Part shown: piece after piece, positions 5,862 through 13,782 of the stretch | Layout of the letters: each line of letters begins with the position of its first letter | Position numbering within the stretch: position 1 is the stretch's first letter | Source of the DNA: a virus | Strand: one strand, 5' to 3' | DNA length: 23,002 bases | Virus record (IMG/VR): IMGVR_UViG_3300031578_004418 | Span: 1-23,002 of that record | Program-made: the position numbers and the translations under genes | The notes under the pieces: model-generated | Seen by the model: the letters and a program-made list of their open reading frames with translations, nothing else | The model's database searches: none | Told to the model about the DNA's origin: nothing

Positions 5862-6824
5862 TTAGGTGTTCGTCAGCTTGTAGGCGAACAGATCCTTCTC
5901 GCCTATAAGCACCTCGTCGGTGTCCATTCTGGCGCGTACGATATCGGATTTGACCTTCTCTTCACGGTAACTTTCGATTACCGGCAGTTCCGGCGCGTTG
6001 ACGTCCCACATCATCGTTCTCGCCGCCGACGGCTCTTCCAGCGGGGCCCCTTCATCGGCCAAGACGGCGATATAAATAACCCCCGCCGTCCATATCTGGC
6101 TTATGCTCTCGGCGACGCCCTCTTCTTTGATGTCGTAGCCGCTGCGTGCAACCAGTACCTGTTTGACGCCTAACATGGCCGCCACCTGTAGCGGCTGCAA
6201 AAGCGAAGGCTGCATACCCGGGTAGGTGTACTTGATCTTGTCGGTCACCTGCGTTACCCGCATAAACTCGCGGAAGTCCGTCCGGGGCATGACAATCGAG
6301 ATGTCCTCGGGGCCAACGCCGCACTTGTCTTCCAGCGCCTCGACGCCCGATGCGATATCGTCGAGTGGGGCGGCCGTGGCTACGGTGGTCCATGCCGTCG
6401 TTACATTATGGTTCGTAAAGCCTCCGCCGGAGAACAGGGCCGCCACCCTTATCTCATGGCCCATCAGGAGCTGGTACCACAGCACCCTCGAGGCCGCGGC
6501 CTCTGCGTCGATAAGGTTGCGGAACCTTCTGCGCCTTCGGTCGTCGATGGGGTATTCCAGCCCGTTTTCCTCGCAGTCGAATGTCCCCTTGCCGAATTCC
6601 CCTGTGATGCGGTTAAAGCTTGCGCCTTCGGCCCGCTTCTGCGTCGCCGGCTTCCTGAAGTTCTCGCGACTCATTATCGGAAAACCCCCCGACGCCTCCG
6701 GCACGGTAAATATGGGCGCCGCCCTCCGCCCTATGAACCGGGCGGCGGCCTTTTCGGCGTCATACTCGTTAACCAGTGCCGACAGGTCGGGCCGGTATGT
6801 TACGCTTGTACTTTCTGGTCTCAT
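5862..6824 (-). CDS. Major capsid protein (lambda gpE-like)
   Basis: A 320-residue protein with ribosome site AAAGGAG about eight bases before the ATG at 6824. Length and layout fit lambda-type (HK97-fold) capsid proteins of 310-350 residues. It begins MRPESTSVTYRPDLSALVNE and, as in this group, the N-terminal part covers a domain that loads the shell (AAARFIGRRAAPIFTVPEAS) and a conserved basic/aromatic stretch (IDDRRRRRFRNLIDAEAAA). The P-domain-like region follows with a helix around ASRVLWYQLLMGHEIRVAAL. The middle contains PEDISIVMPRTDFREFMR and the late part ends in short strands (TMMWDVNAPELPVIESYREE). The gene lies downstream of protease/scaffold and decoration genes, in the lambda C-Nu3-D-E order. 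Hairpins on both sides suggest expression tuning of an abundant product. Confidence 0.82.
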   Translation of the reverse strand: MRPESTSVTYRPDLSALVNEYDAEKAAARFIGRRAAPIFTVPEASGGFPIMSRENFRKPATQKRAEGASFNRITGEFGKGTFDCEENGLEYPIDDRRRRRFRNLIDAEAAASRVLWYQLLMGHEIRVAALFSGGGFTNHNVTTAWTTVATAAPLDDIASGVEALEDKCGVGPEDISIVMPRTDFREFMRVTQVTDKIKYTYPGMQPSLLQPLQVAAMLGVKQVLVARSGYDIKEEGVAESISQIWTAGVIYIAVLADEGAPLEEPSAARTMMWDVNAPELPVIESYREEKVKSDIVRARMDTDEVLIGEKDLFAYKLTNT

Positions 6825-6866
6825 CTGTTGACTCCTTTCAACTTAAAATTTTGTTATTCGGGCAAC

Positions 6867-6907
6867 AAAAAAGCGGCTTCGAGTGTTCGGGCACCCGAAT
6901 GCCGCTT
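6867..6907 (-). terminator. Terminator-like hairpin, copy 1, upstream of capsid
   Basis: On the minus strand: stem AAGCGGC/GCCGCTT (6871-6877 with 6901-6907), an internal TTCGGG/CCCGAA pair in the loop, then a run of T. This has the shape of an intrinsic terminator and sits between the decoration and capsid genes. The 41 bases from 6867 to 6907 are identical to 8051-8091. As capsid must be made in large amounts, it is more likely an attenuator or processing site than a full stop. Confidence 0.65.
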
Positions 6908-6921
6908 TAATGTTTTTTAGC

Positions 6922-6949
6922 CGTCCGTCCGCCGGCCGGCGGACGGACG
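6922..6949. other. Perfect 28-base palindrome, copy 1
   Basis: All 14 base pairs of the palindrome centred on GCCGGCCGGC match. Outer arms are CGTCCGTCC and GGACGGACG. It lies between the decoration gene and the terminator-like hairpin. Compared with the copy at 8108-8133 the core is the same but the arms are different and still pair, which favours a function at the RNA or cruciform level over chance. Confidence 0.7.
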
Positions 6950-6970
6950 AAACCCGTTCTTTACTTTTTA

Positions 6971-8002
6971 TTAACGCTCGGTTACGACGTGAACGTAATC
7001 CACCAGCAGGGCCTCTTCGTTTCCGCCGCCCGCCTTGACGCCCAGCAGGATATGCATCTCGGCAAGTCCCGCTATTGTCAGGCTGACCGCCGTACCCGCC
7101 ACGCCGTCAACGTAAGGCGTAATCGTCGCGGTGACGCCGTCGTTGTAATCGTAGAGGAACCCCAGGGTCTGCCACGCTCCGTCGCTGAAAGCCCCGATAC
7201 TCGCCTCGGTGTCCTGCACTGCCGCGTTGGACGCCTCGAACTGCCATACAGCTTCGTCTAATACCTTGAAGAACACGGCCCCGTCGTAGCTTTGCATCGG
7301 CCCTGCTCCGGCGTCGCGGAGCGAATCGGCCGCCACGGTGTCGGAAAGGCCCACGATGATATTGGCGTCGTCCGTATTGGCCTCGGTAAGCTTTACGCGG
7401 GCCTCGAAGAACAACTTTTTCGTGGTTGAAAACAGCCAGTTTTCTGCCACACTCGATATGTAGCATTCGTCCTCAGCGTCGCCGTCGCAGCCTATTTGCA
7501 GAACGCCGTTTGCTGCGTCCAGAAGCTTATCGGCCTCGGTTGCCCCCGCGTCCTCCACTACCGTCCAGTCGATGGTAGTATCGTAGGTGAAGAAGTCATC
7601 GAAGAACTCGACGATACTTTTGTGCGAGCTGAAAAGGTCGTTGCCGCCCCGCGGTCCCCACATGATTGCGGCCGCCTTGCCGCCGTCTGCGGTAATCGCC
7701 TCTAATAGTATTCCGAGCTGCTTACCCACCGCGGCGTCGGAAACCTTGCCGTCGGTGGTGGCGTAGATTGCCGCCCCCGCCGATATCGCCTTGCTTCCCG
7801 TCACCTTGCGTATGCAGCCGTTAAGCGGCTGGCAGTTGACGGACGTTGTTATGGCCACGTTGTCCTGTGTAAGGCCGATAGGCTCCTCGCCGCCGTCGCT
7901 GTACATCGCCGTTGATGCCGACAGCAGGACCAGCCTGTCGGCTGCCAGGGCCTCGCCGCTTGTCAGGGTAAACGGGCCGTCGTTTTCATAAGCTAATGCC
8001 AT
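6971..8002 (-). CDS. Capsid decoration protein with lectin-like C-terminal domain
   Basis: A 343-residue protein with ribosome site AAAGGAG before its ATG at 8002. Residues ~1-118 resemble small capsid-decoration/cement proteins: a Gly/Ala-rich beta domain with AGAAIYATTDGKVSDAAVG and GILLEAITADGGKAAAIMWG, of gpD/DUF2190 style. From ~130 a second domain begins (EFFDDFFTYDTTIDWTVVED) that looks like a concanavalin/LamG-type beta sandwich: FFEARVKLTEANTDDANIIV, then the GFLYDYNDGVTATITPYVDG strands, ending LLVDYVHVVTE. It lies between scaffold and capsid, as lambda gpD does, but lambda gpD is only about 110 residues. The fusion would present a carbohydrate-binding-like fold on the head surface. 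Domain names are from pattern memory; ligand unknown. Confidence 0.65.
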   Translation of the reverse strand: MALAYENDGPFTLTSGEALAADRLVLLSASTAMYSDGGEEPIGLTQDNVAITTSVNCQPLNGCIRKVTGSKAISAGAAIYATTDGKVSDAAVGKQLGILLEAITADGGKAAAIMWGPRGGNDLFSSHKSIVEFFDDFFTYDTTIDWTVVEDAGATEADKLLDAANGVLQIGCDGDAEDECYISSVAENWLFSTTKKLFFEARVKLTEANTDDANIIVGLSDTVAADSLRDAGAGPMQSYDGAVFFKVLDEAVWQFEASNAAVQDTEASIGAFSDGAWQTLGFLYDYNDGVTATITPYVDGVAGTAVSLTIAGLAEMHILLGVKAGGGNEEALLVDYVHVVTER

Positions 8003-8049
8003 TTTAGTGCTCCTTTACTTTTTTGAATTTTTGTTTCCGTCCGGGCAAT

Positions 8050-8091
8050 AAAAAAAGCGGCTTCGAGTGTTCGGGCACCCGAATGCCGCTT
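8050..8091 (-). terminator. Terminator-like hairpin, copy 2, upstream of decoration gene
   Basis: Minus strand stem AAGCGGC/GCCGCTT (8055-8061 with 8085-8091) followed by seven T. The 41 bases 8051-8091 are identical to 6867-6907, and a short CGGGCAA motif next to it is also shared. It sits between the protease/scaffold gene and the decoration gene. Confidence 0.65.
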
Positions 8092-8107
8092 GATTATTCT
8101 TTAAGCC

Positions 8108-8133
8108 GTTTTCCCGCCGGCCGGCGGAAAAAC
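8108..8133. other. 26-base palindrome, copy 2, one mismatch
   Basis: Centred on GCCGGCCGGC, with outer arms GTTTT and AAAAC that pair and a single C/A mismatch at 8113/8128. Its position relative to the adjacent terminator-like hairpin is the same as for the 28-base palindrome at 6922-6949. The arm sequences differ from that copy while pairing is kept. Confidence 0.65.
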
Positions 8134-8175
8134 AGGCCCGTTATTAACTTTTTAATTGTTTACTTGCCGATCTTC

Positions 8176-8682
8176 TTACGCACCGATTGTCGGCTGCTTG
8201 TCCTTCCATGCAGCGTGGCTCTTGGGGAACTGCTTTGCCGCCGCCAGCATGGCCTTGCCCTTCGAGAGTCCGCCGCCTTCTTTCGTCTGAAGCTGCTCGA
8301 CGGCTGCCGTATAGGTCTCGGCCTTCCCGTCGTCGCCTGCAGCCGGTCCCGTCTCTTCGTCGGCGTCGGTGGGCGCGGCCGCCGTGGCGTCGCTGCCTCC
8401 CGCTGCTATGGCGGTCAGTTTCTCATTGGCGACGGCCAGGTCGCTCTTAACATTCGCCATCTCGGCGGTATGAATCTTAACAGCGGCGTCGAAGGCCGCT
8501 GCCTTCGCCTCGGTGAGGCTTTTGCCTTCGGCGATTGCCTTATTACGGCAGTCGGTAAATGCCTCGCCCGCCAGGGCAGAGCTTATCGACGCAATCCGCT
8601 GGCGCTCTGCGGCGGTGGCGGCCTCTTTGATCTCGTCGCCGTTGACAGCCGCGGCGCCATCCTGTGTCTGTTCTTTAGCCAT
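8176..8682 (-). CDS. Nested in-frame scaffold protein (Nu3-like)
   Basis: Inside the protease gene an ATG at 8682-8680 is preceded by AAGGAG at a spacing of six to seven bases, a much better ribosome site than expected by chance inside a coding region. It would give a 168-residue protein starting MAKEQTQDGAAAVNGDEIKE, equal to residues 316-483 of the protease. The product is helical and acidic, with likely coiled coil, then a Thr/Ala/Asp-rich linker and a short basic C-terminus, which suits a scaffold that binds capsid protein. This is the arrangement of lambda C and Nu3, where the scaffold is read from an internal start in the same frame. Sequence shows the start and site; use in vivo is inferred. 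Confidence 0.75.
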   Translation of the reverse strand: MAKEQTQDGAAAVNGDEIKEAATAAERQRIASISSALAGEAFTDCRNKAIAEGKSLTEAKAAAFDAAVKIHTAEMANVKSDLAVANEKLTAIAAGGSDATAAAPTDADEETGPAAGDDGKAETYTAAVEQLQTKEGGGLSKGKAMLAAAKQFPKSHAAWKDKQPTIGA

Positions 8683-9627
8683 GTCAGTCTCCTTATTAAA
8701 TCGATTATAATTTTTTCCGACCGACGCTCCGGTCGCTGCGGTCGTGTAACTGTCCCTTAATGCGGGAGGTCCCGCCGCAAAAGCCTGCCGCAGCGAATAC
8801 ACCCCGTCTATCAGCTTTTTCTCCGCGGCGTCTGCTCCGATATATGTCCTGCCGTCGGCCAGTTCCCGCAGGTTCTCTTCGGTAAGCCCCGCCTGTCCCC
8901 TGCCCCTCAGGACCGCCGCTATGAAGATATCATAAAAGGTGTCGATCCTTGTCTGTATGGCAGCAAGGTTGGCTTCGGTGATCTCGACGCCCGCCGAGCC
9001 CACTCCTTTATTGGGTCCTGAACGGACGATATGAAATTTAAGCCCCAATTGCTCCGCCCTTGCGGACGAGTCCACGTACAGCGTATAGACGCCTATGGAG
9101 CCGACGTCCGCCGTCTGGTTGGCGTAGAAGGCGTTCGCCTGGCTGCCGAGCCAGTAAGCCGCCGAAGCCGCTAAATCGTCGGCGTAGGCGGTTATGGGCT
9201 TCTCGAAGCTCGCCTCGTATATGTCCTCTGCGAAATCGGCCAGGCCGTCGTTGTTGCCTCCCGGCGATTCGATGTGCAGGAAGATGCCTTTGACCCGGTT
9301 GTCGGTCATCGCCTCGTCGAACTGCCCCCGCAGCGTCTCGATGGACGTACCCCGCGGCTTGCTGGAGCCGTTGACCAGGCGGCTGTACTTGGCGATTATA
9401 CCCGATACAGGGATAACGGCCATACCTCCGGGCGTTATCTCGAACGTCCTTTTATCGCTGCCCTTGATTGTCCTGGCGGCGGTCAGTTCCTTTATCTCAT
9501 CGTCGCTGATACGGTCGCCGCGGACGTGTCTCTCGACGATTTCCACCATTTGCTGCAGCGTCGCCGGCTGCATCGCCCAGTTCTGCCCGCTTATATATTC
9601 CAGAAGGATTGGTAGCGCCCTGCTCAT
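8176..9627 (-). CDS. S49 family prohead protease fused to scaffold (lambda C/Nu3-like)
   Basis: A 483-residue protein. The frame is open up to 9774, but the ATG at 9627 overlaps the portal TGA by four bases (ATGA), and the longer N-terminus is only basic antisense-like residues, so 9627 is chosen. Residues ~65-285 form an SppA/S49 serine peptidase: VIPVSGIIAKYSRL, then IFLHIESPGGNNDGLADFAE, then LAASAAYWLGSQA with the likely nucleophile Ser155, and GPNKGVGSAG with the likely general-base Lys207. In this family the enzyme clips head proteins during maturation. From ~316 a helical, Ala/Glu/Lys-rich scaffold region follows, with KGKAMLAAAKQFPKSHAAW near the C-terminus. A second start inside the frame makes the scaffold alone. 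Neighbours are portal upstream and decoration downstream, exactly as in lambda. Confidence 0.85.
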   Translation of the reverse strand: MSRALPILLEYISGQNWAMQPATLQQMVEIVERHVRGDRISDDEIKELTAARTIKGSDKRTFEITPGGMAVIPVSGIIAKYSRLVNGSSKPRGTSIETLRGQFDEAMTDNRVKGIFLHIESPGGNNDGLADFAEDIYEASFEKPITAYADDLAASAAYWLGSQANAFYANQTADVGSIGVYTLYVDSSARAEQLGLKFHIVRSGPNKGVGSAGVEITEANLAAIQTRIDTFYDIFIAAVLRGRGQAGLTEENLRELADGRTYIGADAAEKKLIDGVYSLRQAFAAGPPALRDSYTTAATGASVGKNYNRFNKETDMAKEQTQDGAAAVNGDEIKEAATAAERQRIASISSALAGEAFTDCRNKAIAEGKSLTEAKAAAFDAAVKIHTAEMANVKSDLAVANEKLTAIAAGGSDATAAAPTDADEETGPAAGDDGKAETYTAAVEQLQTKEGGGLSKGKAMLAAAKQFPKSHAAWKDKQPTIGA

Positions 9628-11081
9628 TGCTCTTCCTCGTCTTCCTTTTTGCCTGTCTCGTTTTTTGTTTTTTCCGGTTTCGGGTACTCTAACCCGATTG
9701 CTTCCAGTTTTTCCTTGTCGGTTCGGATCTCCTCGAACACCTCGTCGGGTTCGCCGCCTCTTTCGCGGATGCACTCGCTCGGCGTCTTTGTGAAGTTGCT
9801 TATATCCAGTTTATTGCCTTCGGCCTCTTTTTTCGGGTCGATATATTCCCACGCCGGCCACTGGCACCGGGCCTTAAACAGTTCCGGCCTCGCCGGCAGT
9901 GTCCCCGCCGCTATGGCGCGGGACATCTGCCACCGGTACCACGGCATGCAGATTTGTTTTTCCGAGAATTTCTGCCATCCGCGAAACATCCTGCGGGCCT
10001 CGCCCAAAGACGCCCTGGCCGATGAGTAATTGGTCTTTGAAAAATCCAGCATCATAAGTTCCAGGGGAAAGCCCACCGCCACGCCTATTATGCGGCAGCA
10101 TGTAACTATGTACGGCTCGAACTGCTCCCCCGGCCTGTTGGCCGCTATCATATCGACGTCCTCGCCGGGCTTGAGCTCGAATATCATCCCGGCCACCATT
10201 TTCTGCAGCTTGTCGTATGTATCGGCGGTATCGGGGTTGTCAATGCTGCCGGCGGGGGCGGCCTCGGTCGGCTGTTTTGTTATTTTTAATCCCATCATTG
10301 AGTTGAGTTCGGCGGCCAGCGATTCGTAGTCGAGGTAGTTATTGGTGCGGTCGTAGAAGGACAGGGCCGCGGCGAAAAACGGAATCCCCCTTGTCTGGCC
10401 GAACCGCTTGCGGTAGGCGGGCATCCACGCGTACTGCACGGGTATGCGCATCGAGTTCCCCGCCGCCGCCATCCCGTAATCGCCCTTTGTCGTTCTCTGC
10501 CTTACCCAGTAGGCGGTGTGGCGGTTGACCTCGTTCATCTCGACGCCTAGGACTATCCGTTTATTGTCTTTACTTACCCCCGACGGCGTCTCAATCTGGT
10601 CGGCCTCGAAGGCCAATACCGAGCCGTCCTTTCTTTTGGTAAGCAGGTCGTCCCCGTCGTTCCATATGGCGCGGATGGTAAGTTTTGCCATATCGGTAAA
10701 ATCGTTTATGCCGCAGGCGTCGCACCTTTCCCTCTCCATACGGGCGGTGATATGTTCTTTTGCCTTTTTATTGAGCTCGGTATCTCCGGTATTGGGTATG
10801 AAGTCGAAGTTCGCCCCGAATATATTGTCGACGGCCCTGTCCAAAATCCCCGAGAAAAGAGACGACTGCCTGTCGTGCATCCTGCACAGCTCGCGGAGCC
10901 GGCCGAGGTTGAGCTTTGTCATGTGCCTGTCGGCCGATGCCATAATGCCGGCCAAAAGGCCGTACGCCCGCCTTGTCCTGTCCGATGCGACCGCGTCGTA
11001 TCCGACGCCGGAGGCCGCTTTTGTCTCCGGCGGTTTCTGTGAGATGCGTTTAATCTCGATTTTTGTAAATGGTATCTTCAT
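9624..11081 (-). CDS. Portal protein (lambda gpB-like)
   Basis: A 485-residue protein, close to the ~500-530 of lambda-type portals. Visible features are an early DRTRRAYGLLAGIMASADRH, then the region LCRMHDRQSSLFSGILDRAV that leads into the portal core, a domain rich in Asp/aromatic residues with AIWNDGDDLLTKRKDGSVLA, then YDRTNNYLDYESLAAELNSM and the late motif FPLELMMLDFSKTNYSSARA, which is characteristic of this portal family. The C-terminus is long, charged and probably disordered (EKTKNETGKKEDEEEQ). The portal forms the dodecameric DNA entry ring at one capsid vertex and docks the terminase. The stop overlaps the protease start (ATGA), and gpW-like lies directly upstream, as in lambda W-B-C. 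Confidence 0.87.
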   Translation of the reverse strand: MKIPFTKIEIKRISQKPPETKAASGVGYDAVASDRTRRAYGLLAGIMASADRHMTKLNLGRLRELCRMHDRQSSLFSGILDRAVDNIFGANFDFIPNTGDTELNKKAKEHITARMERERCDACGINDFTDMAKLTIRAIWNDGDDLLTKRKDGSVLAFEADQIETPSGVSKDNKRIVLGVEMNEVNRHTAYWVRQRTTKGDYGMAAAGNSMRIPVQYAWMPAYRKRFGQTRGIPFFAAALSFYDRTNNYLDYESLAAELNSMMGLKITKQPTEAAPAGSIDNPDTADTYDKLQKMVAGMIFELKPGEDVDMIAANRPGEQFEPYIVTCCRIIGVAVGFPLELMMLDFSKTNYSSARASLGEARRMFRGWQKFSEKQICMPWYRWQMSRAIAAGTLPARPELFKARCQWPAWEYIDPKKEAEGNKLDISNFTKTPSECIRERGGEPDEVFEEIRTDKEKLEAIGLEYPKPEKTKNETGKKEDEEEQ

Positions 11082-11856: not shown

Positions 11857-13782
11857 TTACCTGTTGAACCGGTCCATTTGTCCTATTCTTCTCTGCGCCG
11901 CCGCAATCTTCTTTTCCGGGTCCCTCAGCATCGTCGCCCCGGCGATCTGCCCGGCGAAGTGCGCGTACACCGTGCAGTCCCACAGGTGGACCGGCGTACT
12001 GTGCCAGCTCTTTGTCTTCGGCCTCCATATCATTTTGCCCTTGTTTTTCCCCCTGGACTCCCTGACCTGCTCTTCGCCCGTCAATTGCGCCAGTACCTCT
12101 TTACTGGTTTTTGAGTGCAGGTGAAAGTACCCGGGACCGGTTTCTTTTTTCTCGAACATCATCCGCCACAGCGTGTCCTTGATTGCATTGACGTTAAGGT
12201 CGTATCGAATCATTACGCCGTCCGGCTCTTTGACCGCGTTATAAATCCGGGCCTTTACCGTATCGCTTCCCCGCACGGGGACAAGCGGCAGTCCGGGATA
12301 TTTGCGTATGAAATCTTTCACCACTTCCGGCCTGTACCCGCAGTCTATTGCGCCTTTTCGCAGCAGTAAAAACTGCTCGCTGTCTGCGGCCGTCGGCCAC
12401 TTCTGGGACAGGTAATCGGCGACTATATCGAGGTTGGCCAGGTCCTTCGTGTCCCCCGTCTCCAATCGTCTCTCGTCAATGAGCCACAGCTCGCTGAGCC
12501 ACCCCCAGCCGAGTATGGCTATCCACACATGGTCGATTTGAACGTCGCCGCCCGCCGACAGCATCTGCACTCCTTTAGGGACAACCTCCGGCTCGTATCC
12601 GGAAATATGCATGGCGAGCCTGGTTTCATCGGTCTCTTTTTCCCGCTCTTCCCACGGCTGGCCTATTCGCGAGTTTATGAAGTTCTGCAGGGGTTTGATA
12701 TTGCCCGTTCTTTTGGCCCTCTGCGCCGACGCCCATTCGGCGGCCAGCATATTCATCGTCACAAACCCGGGATACAGCATGAAGCTCGATATCTGGTAGC
12801 CCCTGCGGGGATTGCTGAAAATCTTACCGACAATCCTGCCGTCCGGCCCGACCGTGCATCCGGCGGGGGCCCAGCGCCCCGCCGCCGACCCCGCCCACCT
12901 TACCTCTTCCGTCCACCGCTTCTCGCATTTGGGGCATATATACCGCGCACAGTTGCCCTTGATATAATCCTTTGCGCTCAGAAGCTGCCCGGCCGAGTCC
13001 TTATCGAGTTCCACGTACTGCCAGTCGGGTATGTGCCTTTGATTGCAGTACGGGCATTTGACCCAGTATTCCCGCATATCTGTTTCCGTATATTCCCTGT
13101 CGTGCTCATCGCCCACGAGGATGGGTGTACATGGTGCGTACAGCTTCGATACCGTCCGCCAGGCGATTGTACGGTCCCTTGCAAGGTCCACTGAGCCCGC
13201 CTCTGCGCCGACGGCGTCCTTGTACTTGGCCACCTCGTCGAGCCATATCCGGGCGATGGGCGTATCGGCTAAAGCCGCCGCGCTTCCGGCCCATGCAAGG
13301 TACAGGAACATATTATCCAGCTCCGTCTCCTGCCCGATTCGCAGGCGGTTGATATCGCGGGCGGGCAGGTGTCTCAGCAGCGACGGTGTCGCCTCGAACA
13401 TCGGCTTTATGCGCGTTCTGAACCTCTTTTTAACGTCCGCCTCCGTCGGCATAATTGAGGAAAAGGGCATAGGCTCGTCGTCTATTGTCTGGCCCAGGAA
13501 GTTCAGCCCGATTTCCGTCTTGCTGGATTGTGCCGGGGCGCGTACCCACACCTCGCGGGTCGTAAGGTCCGACAGTGCGTCCATAATCTCGACGGCGAAG
13601 GGGACAATATCGTTGCTCCATTTACCGGAATAGAACGTCGTCTTTTTACTTAATACCCTTTCCTGCTCAGCCCACTGGCTGACGGTCCGCTTGTCCCGCG
13701 GCGTCAGCATCTCCCTTTCCTCATCCTGGAGCGCCAAAGGAACAGGCAGTTTGAAATCAGCTTTATCCGGTCTCTGTGTCAT
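11857..13782 (-). CDS. Terminase large subunit (GpA/TerL family)
   Basis: A 641-residue protein, the expected length for lambda gpA-type terminases. The ATPase domain has a Walker A-like segment APAQSSKTE at 82-90 (an atypical P-loop with AQSSKT), and a Walker B RIWLDE at ~178-183. Cys pairs CPYC (243-246) and CPKC (283-286) suggest a zinc ribbon between ATPase and nuclease, as is common in this family. The nuclease part starts near GGDVQIDHVW, with D413 as a likely metal ligand, and continues with GAIDCGYRPEVV and WDCTVYAHFA. The enzyme cuts concatemers and pumps DNA into the capsid with ATP. Its start overlaps the 46-residue upstream gene (ATGA), so it may be translationally coupled. The ribosome site is weak, in line with coupling. 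Confidence 0.9.
   Translation of the reverse strand: MTQRPDKADFKLPVPLALQDEEREMLTPRDKRTVSQWAEQERVLSKKTTFYSGKWSNDIVPFAVEIMDALSDLTTREVWVRAPAQSSKTEIGLNFLGQTIDDEPMPFSSIMPTEADVKKRFRTRIKPMFEATPSLLRHLPARDINRLRIGQETELDNMFLYLAWAGSAAALADTPIARIWLDEVAKYKDAVGAEAGSVDLARDRTIAWRTVSKLYAPCTPILVGDEHDREYTETDMREYWVKCPYCNQRHIPDWQYVELDKDSAGQLLSAKDYIKGNCARYICPKCEKRWTEEVRWAGSAAGRWAPAGCTVGPDGRIVGKIFSNPRRGYQISSFMLYPGFVTMNMLAAEWASAQRAKRTGNIKPLQNFINSRIGQPWEEREKETDETRLAMHISGYEPEVVPKGVQMLSAGGDVQIDHVWIAILGWGWLSELWLIDERRLETGDTKDLANLDIVADYLSQKWPTAADSEQFLLLRKGAIDCGYRPEVVKDFIRKYPGLPLVPVRGSDTVKARIYNAVKEPDGVMIRYDLNVNAIKDTLWRMMFEKKETGPGYFHLHSKTSKEVLAQLTGEEQVRESRGKNKGKMIWRPKTKSWHSTPVHLWDCTVYAHFAGQIAGATMLRDPEKKIAAAQRRIGQMDRFNR

Follow-up and report, generated by a model that had tools for sequence, protein, structure and literature searches.

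In lambdoid phages, the late genes are preceded by the terminator tR', which is read through with Q, while phage T7 carries many intercistronic RNase III sites per genome in the form of conserved hairpins between co-directional genes. Riboswitch platforms are known to form terminators by strand displacement, a process tuned by wobbles and bulges of the invading strand (PMC10085676). The put RNA of phage HK022, of ~70 nt, is found in early operons, has no U tract and suppresses termination (PMC9378689). Comparative screens have also used covariation to propose structured RNA candidates, some of them near phage genes or associated with terminators, and the main text of the corresponding report names no candidate near terminase, portal or capsid genes (PMC8040213).

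The element described here was found in an IMG/VR virus record of 23 kb (23,002 nucleotides, hereafter the window) whose head genes lie on the minus strand. It is a three-way junction of ~105 nt made of an outer stem (P1), a first hairpin (P2), a linker and a second hairpin (P3) ending in a U-rich tract, after which come the ribosome-binding site and start codon of the next gene. As with tR', a terminator-like structure stands ahead of head genes, and the parallel is plausible for the copies located before terminase; it differs in that many copies lie inside the head cluster and that no Q-like common gene was seen in the 38 carriers. The T7 RNase III sites likewise are conserved hairpins between co-directional phage genes, and we know of no three-strand complementarity in them comparable to the one reported below. 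The ZTP pfl, fluoride and yxjA platforms offer a closer likeness, a short early hairpin being invaded by a downstream strand with wobbles and bulges to give an intrinsic terminator, as we propose for the element; unlike these platforms, it matches no riboswitch model, stands between phage head genes and possesses an outer stem that closes beyond its U tract (PMC10085676). Regarding HK022 put, both are two-hairpin phage RNAs thought to act in cis and co-transcriptionally, but the element is ~105 nt long, possesses P1 and a terminator-like arm of its own, and resides mostly in head-gene clusters (PMC9378689). The element does not correspond to put, from which its length, its U-rich arm, its P1 and its late-gene surroundings set it apart. 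While the proposed mechanism resembles known attenuators, the RNA family and its link with phage head genes appear to be new, as judged from Rfam 15 and the main text of the comparative report (PMC8040213), an unnamed earlier listing being possible, for instance in the 2017 screen of 224 candidate RNAs.

Two copies of one element in the head-gene cluster

The head genes of the window encode a GpA-type large terminase (11857-13782), a lambda-type portal (9624-11081), an S49 head maturation protease (8176-9774; PF01343, 1.2e-29; phrog_53, 2.8e-71), a presumed decoration protein of 343 aa (6971-8002) and a major capsid protein (5862-6824; phrog_1005, E 9.2e-37), all on the minus strand. Copy A of the element (8040-8143, minus strand, model positions 1-105) sits between the protease gene upstream and the presumed decoration gene, and copy B (6857-6958, minus strand) between the latter and the major capsid gene. 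The covariance model R2 recognizes them with 91.6 bits (E 3.4e-22) and 86.7 bits (E 8e-21), respectively, such E-values being rough and both copies being among the sequences used to build R2, which match by construction. Copy A ends 37 nt ahead of gene 6971-8002, whose ribosome-binding site GGAG can be read at 8010-8013, and copy B 32 nt ahead of the capsid gene, served by a GGAG at 6832-6835. The name "decoration" reflects position, since no family model matched the 6971-8002 product at threshold. Below threshold, this protein matches DUF6645 and SO2946-like_C, and its relative on contig L038 a polysaccharide lyase family, which may hint at a sugar-binding-type domain.

The first-pass annotation had recognized the same two-part element on both sides of the decoration gene, and this holds: 41 bases are identical (6867-6907 and 8051-8091) inside a 53-nt direct repeat at 92%, and the palindromes at 6922-6949 and 8108-8133 have a common core, CCGCCGGCCGGCGG, with changed arms, CGTCCGTC/GACGGACG versus GTTTTCC/GGAAAAAC. 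These arms pair fully on the minus strand, the single apparent mismatch being a G-U pair. The flanking of the decoration gene is also true; on the minus strand, each copy in fact immediately precedes the start of a gene. The description as a terminator-like hairpin plus palindrome was incomplete: both parts are present, but it missed the outer stem CGGG/CCCG and the three-strand nature of the hairpin. The element is accordingly larger than noted (~102-104 nt), since it comprises the outer stem and since A-rich and U-rich segments prolong the terminator-like stem. Both copies fold more stably than dinucleotide shuffles, the minus strand giving z = -7.6 and -4.4 and the plus strand z = -5.8 and -2.7, and in RNAfold predictions the CGGG ahead of the palindrome pairs with the CCCG behind the U tract to form a three-way junction of ~103 nt.

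In copy A, all parts being on the minus strand, the P1 5' strand CGGGC (8136-8140) pairs with GCCCG (8042-8046), located downstream of the U tract. Hairpin 1 (8108-8133) is palindromic with a GGCC loop, the linker GGCTTAAA (8100-8107) reads CGNAAG in many relatives, and hairpin 2 (8050-8091) ends in a U7 tract at 8050-8056. Three strands can be distinguished within hairpin 2: S1, TTCGGG (8078-8083); S2, CCCGAA (8070-8075), which is complementary to S1 and occupies the apical loop in the final fold; and S3, CACTCGAA (8062-8069), the invader, whose CA faces the UG at 8076-8077. Copy B is similarly organized on the same strand, with P1 strands CGGG (6953-6956) and CCCG (6859-6862), hairpin 1 at 6922-6949, the linker GGCTAAAAA at 6913-6921 and hairpin 2 at 6867-6907 with a U6 tract at 6867-6872, S1 (TTCGGG), S2 (CCCGAA) and S3 (CACTCGAA) being at 6894-6899, 6886-6891 and 6878-6885. 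Both copies thus contain TTCGGG-TG-CCCGAA-CAC, both show the P1/P2/P3 junction with the covarying helices of R2, and in both a GC-rich hairpin is directly followed by a U run, as in intrinsic terminators.

A covarying RNA family in phage genomes

An exact search with 22 bases of hairpin 2 retrieved two other phage contigs, and a search for CGGGTGCCCGAACAC followed by T5 retrieved six, in each of which the match is preceded by another hairpin and followed by the start of a gene; a model built from those six contigs brought further copies with a different core. Broader scans with the free positions set as N, together with one scan without T requirement, were filtered with covariance models. In total, the IMG/VR motif scans and covariance models gave 51 matches corresponding to 49 distinct members, with one or two copies per record and usually one. 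Some 12 pattern hits reading as coding or unrelated sequence had no model match in the same search and therefore constitute a useful internal control. Two diverged second copies (L068, 4844-4938, minus strand; L076, 8139-8234, plus strand) were found by the model alone with weak scores; read by eye, they keep the S1/S2/S3 complementarity with other letters and a different core. Their weak scores imply that the family may extend beyond the members retrieved by scanning.

Rfam 15 gave no match in the window at gathering level and nothing credible at a relaxed E-value in the window and 24 other loci, and the ZTP and other riboswitch models likewise had no match. Searching isolated phages and plasmids by blastn returned short weak matches only, such as one to Arthrobacter phage Shoya (E 6) that we take as chance. 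An exact-motif scan of 84,980 genomes, run with a motif narrower than R2, gave two matches among the matches listed, which lie inside coding sequence and were judged fortuitous, and a model search of 398 Pseudomonadota genomes produced two weak matches, both without the core. When terminase relatives were used as a host guide, all were below 60% identity and their hosts diverse, so that no host is assignable.

Across the 49 distinct members, 91% of cells are paired and 372 double changes were observed, versus 121 after shuffling and 58-93 with slid partners. P1 (consensus YGGG/GCCC) is paired at 92.7%, and in each of its 4 pairs both partners have changed. Because G-U far exceeds A-C at paired positions (107 versus 2 for P1 and P3 in an earlier 32-sequence alignment), the working strand is the minus strand, which is that of the head genes. 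The fold hence exists in the RNA of the head-gene strand, its structure being demonstrated by covariation. The earlier proposal that compensatory arms reflect selection on the folded RNA is strongly supported by these members, and the further covarying copies that the first-pass annotation had suggested searching for, and on which it staked this reading, do exist. The hairpin 1 loop is GGCC in 29 of the 49 members, with 11.6 expected by shuffling, and the linker is often CGNAAG. Since GGCC is self-complementary, loop-loop dimers are conceivable.

The most unusual part is hairpin 2, which follows the pattern GGCA-X1-UC-X2-GG-UG-CC-X2'-GA-X1'-CA-(C/U)-...-UGCC-U tract. S1 (X1UCX2GG) is complementary to the loop strand S2 (CCX2'GAX1') and also to S3, and all three co-vary. 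Between S1 and S2, X2 is Watson-Crick paired in 50 of 51 aligned rows (12 GC, 11 AU, 20 UA and 7 CG), the exception, L081, pairing in a shifted register, and X1 in 44 of 51. Between S1 and S3, X2 is paired in 49/49, with many wobbles, such as G-U in 20/49 at each of two neighbouring pairs. The free positions being N in the scans, S1:S2 complementarity was not imposed by the search; in the scan without T requirement, all 33 matches followed by TTTT were Watson-Crick at both free pairs. The UG and the facing CA that starts S3 are nearly invariant across members and look like a toehold. Median energies are ~-4.4 kcal/mol for the S1:S2 hairpin and ~-28 kcal/mol for the whole of hairpin 2. On folding truncated transcripts, an equilibrium calculation from which kinetics are only inferred, S1:S2 forms first in most members and gives way to S1:S3 by the time of the U tract, the S1:S2 probability being only ~0.2 for the window copies.

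Regarding the U tract, the longest U run is at least 5 in 39 of 46 scored members, a count to be read knowing that most scans required T5. Nine extra members from the scan without T requirement have longest runs of 3-6 and keep the helix by G-C pairs, and L131 has UUCUUU only; some copies may therefore terminate poorly. The U residues of the 3' side are better conserved than their A partners. A U-rich 3' arm is thus general and clean terminator sequences are common, termination itself being putative.

Neighbouring genes of the element

All elements lie between genes, mostly 9-60 nt ahead of a start with a good ribosome-binding site, and most stand before terminase, portal, protease, scaffold or capsid genes as assigned by PHROGs. 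A large or small terminase gene is downstream in L047, L059, L066, L068, L076 and L080, both in L077, and terminase is the second downstream gene in L051. Portal follows in L043, L067 and L083, and in L131 as connector/portal, with other connectors in L044 and L045, protease in L040, L041 and L074, and scaffold in L050, L073 and L116. The major capsid gene is downstream of window copy B and in L012, L062, L120 and L118, and is the second gene in L042, L046, L085 and L134, while L009 has a major tail gene and L081 a virion protein gene. An extra copy before a helicase gene (L011, 941-1045; L013, 6654-6758) is the one clear case outside head and tail genes. Upstream genes are also portal or terminase in many carriers, and neighbours without assignment include those in L008, L049, L054, L064, L086 and L088. 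In L046 and L042, an apparent large gap upstream of the element is filled by a small gene. In L068, L074, L076 and L086, an ATG comes directly after the U tract, where others have the P1 3' strand, and the hairpin foot may act there in translation start.

The head modules of the carriers are unrelated (lambda-like, T7-like and Mu gpT-like), and none of their protein families occurs in every one of the 38 carriers, the widest being portal (10/38) and large terminase (7/38). A single phage protein as regulator was consequently rejected; an intrinsic function, or else a ligand or host factor, is indicated instead. The decoration and capsid proteins of the window each have one close IMG/VR relative (L006 and L007), on contigs that are both devoid of the element; L007, whose capsid is 65% identical, carries a counterpart of the decoration gene in the same place. 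On this contig (L038), different GC hairpins without the core occupy the same two gaps around that counterpart, at 7830-7860 and 8950-9010.

A candidate attenuator and its alternatives

We tentatively favour, at slightly under an even chance, that each copy is a cis-acting strand-displacement transcription attenuator tuning head-gene expression. During transcription, S1 would pair first with S2 (~-4.4 kcal/mol); as S3 emerges, its CA would pair with the loop UG as a toehold and S3 would displace S2 from S1, closing the long GC hairpin beside the U-rich tract and causing some of the polymerases to stop there. Those reading through would transcribe GCCC, allowing P1 to close into the three-way junction ahead of the next ribosome-binding site, and the read-through fraction would set the output of the downstream head genes. 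We infer the folding order, real termination and output tuning from the design, since a strict early hairpin, a wobble-bearing toehold invader, a GC stem and a U tract are together the architecture of riboswitch platforms. The role in head-protein expression advanced in the first-pass annotation fits the gene context, and mRNA processing, another of its suggestions, is a lesser candidate. Counting against the attenuator, the GC pairs at the base of the stem might form while S1 is still bound to S2. Moreover, P1 has been conserved even with its 3' strand beyond the U tract, and part of the function therefore requires read-through RNA, and simple attenuation leaves the conserved GGCC loop and CGNAAG linker unexplained. 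Together, P1, loop and linker suggest either a binding partner or an additional function once the mRNA is mature, for instance processing.

Several other explanations address these features. An element of processing or stability, in which hairpin 2 (~20 bp) and the junction would either be cleaved by RNase III, as at the T7 sites, or shield mRNA ends, thereby giving separate stable head-gene mRNAs, is doubtful, even if it would suit an intergenic position between co-directional head genes, a P1 that forms in read-through RNA only and a long uninterrupted helix that persists in members with a poor U run (L131, L133). Indeed, it leaves unexplained the strict S1:S2 complementarity, the near-invariant UG/CA and the U-rich tract of nearly all members, and there is usually one copy per record, not one per gene. 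The conserved unpaired GGCC loop and CGNAAG linker do look like a binding surface, and the consistent context of head and packaging genes would agree with a leader whose three-way junction is bound by a phage or host protein controlling head-gene transcription or translation; we consider this unlikely, as the lack of a family common to all carriers makes self-regulation by one virion protein improbable and the ribosome-binding site is outside the fold in most members. Still related to attenuation, hairpin 1 and the linker might constitute, with the S1:S2 hairpin, an aptamer recognizing some small molecule or host factor that signals assembly readiness, whose binding would block S3 invasion and switch capsid and packaging genes on or off in unrelated phages of one host group. 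The element does have conserved nucleotides outside its helices and pairings that exclude one another, and no riboswitch model matches; such a sensor seems to us quite unlikely.

That the copies are ordinary intrinsic terminators or insulators, alike by chance, is very unlikely: hairpin and U tract do score as a terminator in the window, but an ordinary terminator would not have the core GGCANTCNGGTGCCNGANCAY, the three-strand co-variation, a covarying P1 past the U tract or hairpin 1, the two weak matches in the Pseudomonadota genomes were without the core, and covariation with 33/33 complementary free pairs already disfavours it. A self-contained fold with a terminator, and a palindromic GGCC loop that could permit dimers, would be compatible with a trans-acting small RNA made from the element, which we regard as highly improbable given its fixed place before head genes, arguing for cis action, and the absence of an upstream promoter signal (5/6 TATAAT matches in 17 of 44, versus 12.8 in shuffles, maximum 21). 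No third copy of S1 or S2, as pseudoknot or antisense partner, was found in the flanks. The suggestion that a mobile intergenic unit brought in the decoration gene, inspired by the two similar copies either side of one gene, is barely tenable: most carriers have a single copy, in contrast to the many dispersed copies per genome expected of such repeats, all copies occupy oriented intergenic gaps, their downstream genes are many and different, and L007 has the decoration-gene counterpart without the element.

The occurrence of one RNA, absent from Rfam 15, before the head genes of many unrelated uncultivated phages suggests that head assembly is under a shared control at the RNA level. With regard to the favoured attenuator, the three-strand hairpin is easy to mutate and would make it possible to test directly whether co-transcriptional strand displacement serves as a natural control of dosage, and the opposition between a strict early hairpin and a wobbly invader provides evolutionary evidence for a mechanism studied mostly in riboswitches. 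Finally, should a ligand or host factor take part, the element would reveal what a phage senses before building its particles.
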